A stretch of DNA of 50,899 nucleotides from Candidatus Paceibacter sp. GTDB taxonomy: Bacteria; Patescibacteriota; Patescibacteriia; Magasanikbacterales; UBA922. Both the position numbers and the translations under genes were made by a program. Location of the stretch: the NCBI GenBank assembly GCA_020725175.1, contig DYFM01000008.1:2041-52939 (forward strand). Direction: 5' to 3'. The first letter of the stretch is position 1; every line of letters starts with the position of its first letter. This document shows positions 1-34,503 of the stretch, piece by piece. The notes below the pieces were generated by a model that worked only from the letters and a program-made list of their open reading frames with translations, made no database searches and was not told where the DNA came from.

Positions 1-55
1 CACCTTACAAGAAAACAACACGCCACCTTAGCTCAGCTGGTAGAGCAACGGTTTT
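1..55. repeat. Exact 55-bp direct repeat, left copy
   Basis: Bases 1-55 are identical to 339-393, and the copies diverge at 56/394. The repeat holds the last codons of the GIY-YIG reading frame (stop at 29-31) and the 5' part of tRNA-Thr. The window therefore begins inside what would be a second upstream copy of the GIY-YIG/tRNA-Thr junction. Exactly 55 bases at a sequence end also fits a de Bruijn overlap (k=55), so the arrangement to the left is uncertain. Confidence 0.9.
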
Positions 56-92
56 TCCGCCCGAGGCGGACCCGCCTTGGGCGGGGTAAACC
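22..92 (+). pseudogene. Broken tRNA-Thr copy, 5' half, interrupted in the anticodon loop
   Basis: Bases 22-55 match the first 34 nt of the intact tRNA-Thr (360-432): acceptor 5' strand, D-arm and 5' anticodon stem. After the loop T-run comes about 30 nt of GC-rich palindromes (57-85). GTAAACC (86-92) then resumes the tRNA sequence before it is lost. The variable loop, T-arm and 3' acceptor strand are missing, so this copy cannot fold as a tRNA. It looks like a partial duplication later hit by a palindromic element. Confidence 0.7.
57..85. repeat. Double 13-15 bp GC-rich palindrome
   Basis: Two adjacent palindromes, CCGCC-CGA-GGCGG (57-69) and CCCGCC-TTG-GGCGGG (71-85), sit in the anticodon loop of the broken tRNA-Thr copy. 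Related units (CCGCCTnnGGCGG and degraded forms) occur near 585, 29898-29942, 34472-34484, 34507-34518, 39592-39601 and 48436-48515. They form a dispersed family in an otherwise AT-rich intergenic background. Confidence 0.7.
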
Positions 93-99
93 TCAATCT

Positions 100-369
100 A
101 TGTTTTACGTGTACATTTTGTACAGTACCAAACTGAGAAAAAAGTATATCGGATATACCGAAGATCTTCGCAATCGAGTTGAGCAGCATAATTCAGGAAA
201 AGTAACATTTACGGCAAAAGGTCGTCCTTGGCAACTCATTTACTATCAAGCCTTTGTTAGTAAGTTAGATGCTCAGGAAGAAGAACGTTTTTTAAAGTCA
301 GGTAAAGGAAGAGAGCGGCTGAAAATCTTACTGAAGCACACCTTACAAGAAAACAACACGCCACCTTAG
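100..369 (+). CDS. GIY-YIG domain protein, small (UPF0213/YhbQ-like)
   Basis: An 89-aa single-domain GIY-YIG nuclease-like protein. The signature strands are YVYIL (residues 3-7) and KYIGYT (15-20), followed by a conserved Arg (DLRNRV) and His-Asn (QHNSGK), then a Trp-containing strand. This is the usual length for the stand-alone family, whose members are often proposed to act on DNA but mostly lack a proven role. The last three codons (Pro, Pro, stop) are made from the first bases of tRNA-Thr, so the gene and the tRNA overlap by 10 nt. The start ATG follows CTCAATCT, with no Shine-Dalgarno motif. The 55-bp repeat implies a second copy of its 3' end upstream. Family call is firm; function is not known. 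Confidence 0.85.
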   Translation: MFYVYILYSTKLRKKYIGYTEDLRNRVEQHNSGKVTFTAKGRPWQLIYYQAFVSKLDAQEEERFLKSGKGRERLKILLKHTLQENNTPP

Positions 370-432
370 CTCAGCTGGTAGAGCAACGGTTTTGTAAACC
401 GTGGGTCGTCGGTTCGAATCCGACAGGTGGCT
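360..432 (+). tRNA. tRNA-Thr (anticodon TGT)
   Basis: A full cloverleaf. The acceptor stem GCCACCT pairs with AGGTGGC, the anticodon stem ACGGT/ACCGT encloses loop TTTGTAA, and the T-arm is GTCGG-TTCGAAT-CCGAC. The discriminator is T and CCA is not encoded. Its first 10 nt are the end of the GIY-YIG gene. tRNA-Tyr follows after 4 nt, so the two are probably co-transcribed. Confidence 0.95.
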
Positions 433-436
433 CAAT

Positions 437-518
437 GGGTCGGTTCCAGAGCGGTCAAATGGGGCGGACTGTAAATCCGCTGGCTCAGCCTTCGCAGGTT
501 CGAATCCTGCCCGGCCCA
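437..518 (+). tRNA. tRNA-Tyr (anticodon GTA)
   Basis: A class II tRNA of 82 nt with a long variable arm. The acceptor GGGTCGG pairs with CCGGCCC, the anticodon stem GCGGA/TCCGC encloses CTGTAAA, and the T-arm is GCAGG-TTCGAAT-CCTGC. The discriminator is A; CCA is not encoded. A terminator-like hairpin follows directly. Confidence 0.95.
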
Positions 519-523
519 CACAG

Positions 524-18237: not shown

Positions 18238-18885
18238 GTGACTCAGAGTCTCCTCCTCCTCTCTGAAGCGATTGCGCTGGGGTTTGCGCCCCAGTGGATT
18301 GCCTCAGTAGAGGGGGACGTCCTCCTTTCCCGAACTGGTCGAGGAGAGATCCTTCGTGTGGTGGTTGCACGCGATGGAAAACCTCTATATGACCAGTGGG
18401 TCGCTGTCGAGCCGATCGGAGCAGCTACTGCTCCGATTGACAAAAACGGACGGCTCGGCCTGGTCCAGGTTTGGAGGCCAGTTGCTTCGGCAACTGATCC
18501 GGTCATTCCTTGGCAGGTCGACGTTCGAATGCTCGGCCGTCTTTGTTGGGAAATCCCTCGGGGTTTCCCTGAAGTCGGTGAGCAAGGCTCGGAGACGGCT
18601 CTTCGGGAGGGGGGCGAGGAGATGGGGCGACATCTCTCCGGACCGGTGTGCCTTGGTAGGTACAACGCGAATTCGACGTTCTTCGTGAACTCGATTCCGT
18701 TGTGGACGGCCAGGGTTGCTGGTAGCGGAGAGGTGGTCGCAGGGGATCCGAACGAAAGGATCCTTCGGGCAAGCTTTTTCACGACTGAGAAAGTCGGAAG
18801 AATGCTTGACTCGGGGGATCTGGAGGACGGATTCACTCTGGCCGCGTTGACCTATCTTGGTCGACGCGGATTGTTCCGTCTCTAA
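18238..18885 (+). CDS. NUDIX hydrolase with foreign base composition
   Basis: A 215-aa NUDIX protein. Its box is PRGFPEVGEQGSETALREGG then EEMG, so spacing is canonical, with a Gly in the first hydrophobic position. Codons favour G and C at third positions (CTC, GTC, CGG, TCG) unlike every neighbour, so the gene was probably acquired recently. The start GTG at 18238 sits close behind a Shine-Dalgarno-like AAGGAGG; neighbours almost never have one. It lies between two strong terminators and thus forms its own unit with the non-coding tail to 19248. The FPEVGEQG...ALRE form suggests an ADP-ribose or nucleotide-sugar type, but the substrate is unknown. Confidence 0.8.
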   Translation: MTQSLLLLSEAIALGFAPQWIASVEGDVLLSRTGRGEILRVVVARDGKPLYDQWVAVEPIGAATAPIDKNGRLGLVQVWRPVASATDPVIPWQVDVRMLGRLCWEIPRGFPEVGEQGSETALREGGEEMGRHLSGPVCLGRYNANSTFFVNSIPLWTARVAGSGEVVAGDPNERILRASFFTTEKVGRMLDSGDLEDGFTLAALTYLGRRGLFRL

Positions 18886-34266: not shown

Positions 34267-34292
34267 ATTGCCGACATCTTTATATCAGGGTA

Positions 34293-34310
34293 CCATCGTC
34301 TCGTGGCTAG
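34293..34310 (+). repeat. Partial duplicate of the tRNA-Glu 5' end
   Basis: CCATCGTCTCGTGGCTAG differs in one base from the matching piece of tRNA-Glu (34328-34345). It lies just upstream, followed by CCCGATTCT that is complementary to GAATCGGG downstream of the tRNA. Confidence 0.7.
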
Positions 34311-34323
34311 TCCCGATTCTCGT

Positions 34324-34395
34324 GGCCCCATCGTCTAGTGGCTAGGACACGTGGTTCTCATCCACGAAAGAGGGGTTCGATCCCCCTTGGGGCTA
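34324..34395 (+). tRNA. tRNA-Glu (anticodon CTC)
   Basis: A cloverleaf of 72 nt. Acceptor GGCCCCA pairs with TGGGGCT (first pair G-T), anticodon stem CGTGG/CCACG with loop TTCTCAT, and T-arm AGGGG-TTCGATC-CCCCT. The discriminator is A and CCA is not encoded. Flanking CCCGATTCT and AGAATCGGG extend the acceptor stem outward, which would give a long precursor helix. It stands between 5' and 3' tRNA fragments. Confidence 0.9.
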
Positions 34396-34406
34396 CAAGA
34401 ATCGGG

Positions 34407-34503
34407 ATCATCCTGGAAACAGGAGTTCGATTCTCCTACGGGCTACAAAGGGGTTCTGGGTCCAAGGCCCATCCGCCTCGGGCGGAGATTCTCCTACGGG
34501 CTA
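34407..34503 (+). pseudogene. Two 3'-terminal tRNA fragments
   Basis: The T-arm plus acceptor-end sequence AGGAG-TTCGATT-CTCCT-ACGGGCTA lies at 34421-34445. A second, broken version AGATTCTCCTACGGGCTA is at 34486-34503, with a CCGCCTCGGGCGG palindrome (34472-34484) directly in front, where the T-arm should start. Neither has a full 5' half, so they are tRNA debris. A further degraded palindrome follows at 34507-34518. Confidence 0.65.

Follow-up and report, generated by a model that had tools for sequence, protein, structure and literature searches.

SegB is a free-standing GIY-YIG homing endonuclease of T-even phages that is associated with tRNAs and makes tandem tRNA/segB repeats; its authors leave open why SegB does not destroy the phage genome (PMC13096335). 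SegB resembles the locus described here in being a small GIY-YIG gene beside tRNA genes, in forming tandem units of tRNA plus nuclease, and in having junctions that join the 5' end of the tRNA to the 3' end of the nuclease (PMC13096335). The differences are that SegB belongs to phages whereas the present system is chromosomal, that the present proteins are closer to the UPF0213 and SLX1 folds, and that a broken-half/intact-tRNA architecture, hairpins and isotype-tracking lineages are not seen for SegB in the accessible text (PMC13096335). A second precedent is provided by the mobile ORF endonuclease elements (mORFs) of fungal mitochondria (for example Allomyces atp6; Glomus atp6, atp9, cox2 and nad3), which insert in genes and bring a replacement for the displaced end (PMC3630166). 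In the mORFs, as is proposed here, a homing-type endonuclease ORF inserts in a gene and brings a part copy of it, the gene keeps working and the native part remains as a scar; the mORFs, however, occupy protein genes of mitochondria, mostly at C-terminal ends, whereas here the targets are bacterial tRNA genes, with 5' or 3' fragments and with hairpins. By this comparison, the present system appears to join features of SegB and the mORFs in bacterial chromosomes and to add hairpins.

Other known systems share single features. Islands and prophages that integrate in tRNAs likewise use a tRNA gene as attachment site, reconstitute it and leave a fragment, whereas here there is no integrase, one 270-bp gene, and mostly a 5' fragment ending in a loop. 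The UPF0213 proteins (1zg2, 1ywl) and the SLX1 structure-specific nucleases have the same domain as the protein encoded in the window; to our knowledge, neither UPF0213 and other small GIY-YIG proteins nor SLX1 are known as mobile or tRNA-linked. In REPIN/RAYT systems, inverted pairs of short palindromes are dispersed in the genome alongside a nuclease-type gene, and dispersed paired palindromes together with a nuclease-type gene are also what is seen here; RAYTs, however, are HUH-type and not GIY-YIG, and the link in the present case is one of correlation rather than cause. Finally, introns that harbour homing endonucleases occur in CPR rRNA genes (PMC10714607, PMC8172020). The open-access literature that we searched yielded no paper describing a tRNA/GIY-YIG element and nothing relevant on GIY-YIG, tRNA and CPR together.

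Architecture of the tRNA-Thr locus

The window, i.e. the whole stretch of 50,899 nucleotides that was analysed, comes from a tiny-genome bacterium of the Patescibacteria and corresponds to C14:2041-52939 in an assembly of 33 contigs; directly before its base 1 stands a scaffold gap of 100 N. The locus occupies window 1-519:

1..21, + strand: second copy of the 3' end of the GIY-YIG gene, left over from an upstream unit and continuing left across the 100-N gap
22..55, + strand: nt 1-34 of a tRNA-Thr broken off in the anticodon loop, matching the intact copy at 34/34 positions
56..85, + strand: double hairpin with two 6-bp stems and 3-nt loops, TCCGCCCGAGGCGGA + CCCGCCTTGGGCGGG, within the broken anticodon loop
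86..92, + strand: GTAAACC, a remnant in which the tRNA-Thr sequence resumes for 7 nt past the hairpin; the same in G040
100..369, + strand: GIY-YIG nuclease gene, 89 aa, intact; its TAG stop is tRNA nt 8-10
246..393, + strand: 148-bp segment implied by overlaps to be duplicated (GIY-YIG 3' part and tRNA 5' half)
360..433, + strand: intact tRNA-Thr(TGT) (ARAGORN; Rfam)
437..519, + strand: tRNA-Tyr(GTA), the next gene, with no broken copy there (ARAGORN)

The unit measures ~340 bases and has one gene of 270 bp, the GIY-YIG gene being the sole ORF between the repeats. These form a 55-nt exact direct repeat (1-55 and 339-393) that consists of the last 21 nt of the gene before the tRNA and of tRNA-Thr nt 1-34. 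This content, like the 10-nt overlap of the gene end (ORF 100-369) with the intact tRNA-Thr (360-433), is as the original prediction had it; the direct repeat that it saw flanking the gene is also there, but its length of 55 bp reflects an assembly k-mer, the implied length being 148 bp. The double hairpin, made up of adjacent hairpins at 56-70 and 71-85 and unique to the broken tRNA-Thr copy, and the 7-nt tRNA remnant after it were absent from that earlier reading. Between the remnant and the gene lies TCAATCT (93-99), and the window leader folds with -39.1 kcal/mol (z = -4.0).

The contig to the left of the gap ends in a 55-nt exact copy of window 246-300, i.e. another GIY-YIG fragment, and the contig to the right starts with the 55 nt identical to 339-393. 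A length of exactly 55 nt at both edges is the trace of a graph assembler with k=55; both repeats have exactly that length and 56-mers no longer match, so 55 is the k of the assembler and not a biological length. The overlaps imply a true repeat of 148 bp (246-393), the two 55-nt ends of which are the repeats at the gap. With this segment occurring twice in the graph, the real gap would be about 38 nt, and it is most likely through this length, not 100, that the left contig joins. One segment occurring twice would also place a second, truncated copy of the GIY-YIG gene before the broken tRNA, so that the locus, whose left junction spans the scaffold gap, is most likely a partly decayed tandem.

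The protein encoded in the window matches Pfam PF01541 (GIY-YIG; E=6e-15), and an alignment of 11 diverse members has Y3, Y5, Y16, G18, R26, H30 and E62 as invariant positions. Its best solved relatives are the UPF0213 proteins (1zg2, 1ywl) and SLX1; NCBIfam gave no match to it, and PHROG gave a weak match to 'homing endonuclease with GIY-YIG motif' (3.6e-4 over 35 residues). Purifying selection is evident from the GIY-YIG pair L181/L183 (dN 0.051, dS 0.459, dN/dS 0.11), which is the one close pair without saturation, most pairs being saturated. As in a free-standing GIY-YIG homing endonuclease gene, the catalytic residues are present, the gene stands alone and outside any intron or intein (no group I intron by Rfam at 16 such loci), and element-free alleles occur in relatives; the loop breakpoints and the empty and occupied tRNA-Asp site described below place it in or next to its putative target.

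Recurrence beside tRNA genes

The window's own genome has six GIY-YIG matches, one of which (C14:38161) sits in a 441-aa open frame and is outside this group. Three further loci, in C21, C18 and C6, combine a GIY-YIG gene with tRNA fragments:

C21, tRNA-Trp: two identical 344-nt units (tRNA-Trp nt 1-36, hairpin and GIY-YIG), then intact tRNA-Trp
C18, tRNA-Lys: tandem broken Lys copies followed by intact Lys, GIY-YIG and a Lys 3' fragment
C18 (L123, G000:C18:1-2500), 1-278: tandem 83-nt units of broken tRNA-Lys 5' part and palindrome, directly before the intact Lys
C6, tRNA-Ile(tat): intact tRNA-Ile, GIY-YIG, then an Ile 3' fragment

The Lys and Ile(tat) loci, together with an Ile locus in G010, represent a mirror form with 3' fragments, and 3' fragments after the intact tRNA are also found at Ser (L027), Gln (L043) and Trp (L156). 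Tandem units occur at the own-genome Trp locus, at the Ile locus of G010, and at Gln (L256) and Ser (L127). In G040, which belongs to another genus, the order is tRNA-Thr nt 1-34, hairpin, GTAAACC, GIY-YIG, intact Thr and Tyr; its GIY-YIG gene is 77% identical to that of the window and has one in-frame stop.

We surveyed 198 distinct GIY-YIG genes, gathered from relatives, across the phylum and in a collection of named genomes; they were picked for resembling the window protein or its relatives, and their frequencies are therefore not phylum-wide rates. Among loci with enough flank, the nearest tRNAs within 150 nt of the GIY-YIG gene are on the same strand in 95 and on the opposite strand in 1. 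With the tRNA start as reference, the GIY-YIG stop codons have maxima at -15, -10 and 0 to +9. Upstream of the 71 GIY-YIG genes that end -60 to +30 nt from a tRNA 5' end (5'-type loci), a partial copy of the same tRNA is found in 47 at a score of at least 13 and in 36 at a score of at least 16; the control rates for other isotypes are 2.5% and 0.6%, respectively, and shuffled regions give 0. These partial copies break in the anticodon (0 to +3), at the end of the D arm (-15 to -11) or in the T loop (+22 to +28), and the broken copies usually hold hairpins; about a third of the 5'-type loci have no detectable broken tRNA copy. Many tRNA isotypes are used across the survey, nearly all loci have only one intact tRNA, and the layout is also found in few-contig genomes, namely G091 (two contigs; L043, L130, L131) and G382 (one contig; L283). 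As with the mORFs, a part copy restores the host gene and the native part is left as a scar, in the form of a broken half with an intact tRNA (47/71) and in the mirror form. Broken and intact halves are mostly identical, and tRNAs vary too little to show a foreign origin of the carried part.

In clearly non-CPR bacteria, GIY-YIG relatives rarely lie next to a tRNA. Viral contigs yielded 1 weak relative and phage records 2 weak ones, on which basis a phage or plasmid vector was rejected, and a class-wide DNA search with the whole unit returned mainly plain tRNAs. Some GIY-YIG genes are beside tmRNA rather than tRNA. A lineage about 120-380 nt downstream of tmRNA occurs in several CPR groups (L036, L052, L116, L199, L201, L202, L219), and no partial tmRNA copies were found at the tmRNA-linked genes. 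At L141 (G026:C11:48200-50200), the stretch that matches a 16S rRNA gene has a GIY-YIG gene inside it, as an insertion in rRNA.

On the GIY-YIG tree, which has 88 columns for 136 rows and many unresolved forks, tRNA identity changes 74 times vs 98.4 with shuffled labels (0/200 as low); the Ser, Asp, Trp and tmRNA groups are each strongly clustered (0/500), and Thr is not clustered. This isotype tracking could come partly from vertical inheritance. Within the family, the syntenic rplT...tRNA-Asp site contains a GIY-YIG gene in 3 genomes (G022, G036, G014) and is empty in 15, including the window's own genome. Both states exist in genus g23, where G022 and G036 are occupied and G044 is empty; at the nearby tmRNA the pattern is reversed, with a GIY-YIG gene in G044 and none in G022. 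The original prediction of a duplicated unit anchored in a tRNA is borne out by the comparison across the phylum and by the tandem units, and the search of relatives for occupied and empty sites that it proposed returned the Thr unit in G040 and the syntenic empty sites at tRNA-Asp. Its picture of the tRNA as a landing site that is rebuilt holds for the rebuilding, which is seen each time; the landing point is the anticodon loop (or the T or D loop) and not merely the 5' end. The prediction is thus supported in part, with the nuclease as the putative driver of the duplication.

Hairpins and their distribution

A perfect stem of at least 6 bp is present in the 110 nt before 82% of tRNA-linked GIY-YIG genes vs 23% of control windows, and the exact double 6-3-6 hairpin is upstream of 30/83 tRNA-linked GIY-YIG genes vs 4/3393 control windows. 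The first three base pairs of the hairpin vary, with changes on both sides. By covariation, two 6-bp hairpins are paired in 99.7% of cells and have 6 pairs changed on both sides, in rows that were picked for forming such hairpins, the enrichment being the safer evidence. One long hairpin in place of two was rejected (83.4% paired, no better than shuffles). The double-hairpin motif is also found elsewhere in the genome, with 7-9 bp flanking duplications at 5/60 copies vs 0.2 expected, some of the duplication-bearing flanks being simple-sequence DNA. Across 92 genomes, the number of single 6-bp hairpins (TCCGCC..GGCGGA type) correlates with the number of GIY-YIG genes (rho 0.62; partial 0.50 after composition control). 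The hairpin may belong to the element itself, may be an independent repeat accumulating in tRNA copies that the cell can spare, or may serve as a mark that keeps the two halves from recombining.

Similar structures were observed at other places. In window 34288-34503, a broken second tRNA-Glu, with its 5' part at 34288-34309 and its 3' part starting at 34410, encloses an intact tRNA-Glu(CTC) (34324-34396) that has the inverted arms CCCGATTCT/AGAATCGGG on its flanks; a further 3' fragment has the double hairpin (34457-34486) in its T loop, and no GIY-YIG gene is present in this arrangement. At L014 (G000:C24:24500-26000; hairpins at 546 and 619), a tRNA-Arg(TCT) copy has double hairpins in the D loop and the T loop, with no GIY-YIG nearby in the part read, and around 1327 of L011 (G000:C25:41000-47000) the same double hairpin interrupts a tRNA-Arg(GCG)-like copy at nt 12/13. 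Double hairpins outside tRNAs, with flanking direct duplications of 9, 8 and 7 bp, are found at L010 (G000:C28) 1399 and at L012 (G000:C33:86000-88500) 1042 and 1128; these duplications suggest that the hairpin repeat itself may be mobile. ARAGORN also reports, at window 18452-18544, a tRNA of undefined type (anticodon 'tc') that is probably false or degenerate.

Competing explanations and a proposed homing-type model

That no broken tRNA is real, the left copy having been made by joining at a shared 55-mer, is very unlikely. Base 1 does come directly after the 100-N gap, and each edge repeat measures exactly 55 nt, but window 1-519 is one contig in which 56-85 is unique to the broken copy, G040 shows the same order from tRNA nt 1-34 through hairpin, GTAAACC and GIY-YIG to tRNA-Thr, and the dozens of independent loci include some in one- or two-contig genomes. 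A pure assembly artefact was accepted for the 55-nt repeat length and rejected for the structure: because the arrangement of broken tRNA, GIY-YIG and tRNA lies in one contig and recurs in other genera and in very-few-contig genomes, it is itself no artefact, and the observation is confirmed. A decayed integrative island or phage remnant with the tRNA as attachment site would bear the classic island signature of a tRNA fragment repeated around inserted DNA. Here, however, the GIY-YIG gene is the only ORF between the repeats and there is no integrase, hundreds of loci have the same one-gene content, almost no relatives occur in phage or viral collections, and the fragment as a rule comes from the 5' part, on the side opposite to that in most islands, all of which makes such a remnant highly improbable. 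With no integrase, nothing but the GIY-YIG gene between the repeats and few viral relatives, the locus was not classed as a tRNA-integrating island or prophage. As for a self-splicing intron with a homing endonuclease interrupting the tRNA, CPR RNA genes do carry group I introns of this kind (PMC8172020, PMC10714607), but Rfam returned tRNA and tmRNA only at 16 such loci, with no group I intron, and splicing is not needed because an intact tRNA follows each unit; an intron is extremely unlikely, and a group I intron was rejected as its catalytic core was not found by Rfam at the 16 loci.

A resident nuclease might also raise tRNA dosage by tandem duplication, with no movement between loci or genomes. 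Phage T6 SegB makes tandem tRNA-Tyr/segB repeats with a truncated segB via microhomology (PMC13096335), and tandem units are present among these loci; yet one intact tRNA in nearly all loci means that dosage is not raised, the broken copies end in loops and carry hairpins, a syntenic site is patchily occupied within one genus, and many isotypes are used, and we consider amplification alone unlikely. The same holds for the idea that the double hairpin is the mobile part, REPIN- or MITE-like and inserting in tRNA loops, with the GIY-YIG gene as helper or passenger. This idea is consistent with the upstream enrichment of the exact motif (30/83 vs 4/3393), with its dispersed copies, some of which have flanking duplications of 7-9 bp (5/60 vs 0.2 expected), with the higher motif numbers in those of 92 genomes that have more GIY-YIG genes (rho 0.62, partial 0.50), and with broken tRNA copies that carry the motif but no GIY-YIG gene. 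It is improbable in that most GIY-YIG loci have other hairpins and not the exact motif, the duplication of tRNA halves is left unexplained by hairpin insertion, the correlation may reflect a shared cause (openness of the genome to mobile DNA), and some flanks with duplications are simple-sequence DNA.

We regard it as probable that the locus is instead a minimal homing-type mobile unit, one small GIY-YIG gene targeted to tRNA genes, in which a half-target duplication rebuilds the tRNA; cleavage, homing or transposition, and exchange between donor and recipient are steps that we infer from the sequences. The nuclease would cut its cognate tRNA gene in a loop (the anticodon loop at the window locus; the T or D loop elsewhere), and the break in an empty allele would be repaired from the donor by way of two homology arms, the tRNA 5' part that precedes the GIY-YIG gene and the intact tRNA that follows it. 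The recipient would then have the native tRNA 5' part, hairpins, GIY-YIG gene, and a new tRNA 5' part fused to the native 3' part; the host would retain a working tRNA, with the old 5' part as a scar. Because the rebuilt tRNA would still carry the target, occasional self-cutting with repair from the upstream copy would give rise to tandem units, and the window locus, with GIY-YIG fragments left and right of the broken tRNA, would be a partly decayed tandem of this kind; that tandem units exist in several genomes suggests that self-cutting takes place. Homing repair would explain the loop breakpoints, the isotype-tracking lineages, the patchy sites and the tandem units. The main weakness of homing is that the intact downstream tRNA keeps the whole target, which leaves self-protection unexplained, a question that arises for SegB too. 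Also against it, the broken and intact halves are mostly identical and so bear no direct trace of horizontal exchange in their sequence, hairpin-bearing broken tRNA copies are found where there is no GIY-YIG gene (window 34288-34503), about a third of the 5'-type loci and all tmRNA-linked loci are without a detected broken copy, and the left junction of the window locus crosses a scaffold gap.

A wider reading, which we hold to be doubtful, is that the Patescibacteria have a phylum-wide class of ~340 bp one-gene elements that cut tRNA (perhaps tmRNA) loops and rebuild them, the nuclease being partnered with a dispersed, loop-inserting double-hairpin repeat that marks the displaced copy; on that reading, a GIY-YIG/palindrome partnership of this kind would be one not described before. 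With empty and occupied sites within one genus, the homing question is directly testable. If homing is true, phage SegB and the fungal mORFs would be linked to a chromosomal bacterial system, the scattered tRNA fragments in these genomes would be explained, and there would be a small family of natural nucleases with lineages tracking particular tRNA genes. One of the smallest mobile elements known would then have invaded some of the smallest bacterial genomes, targeting the most essential genes there and surviving by rebuilding them.
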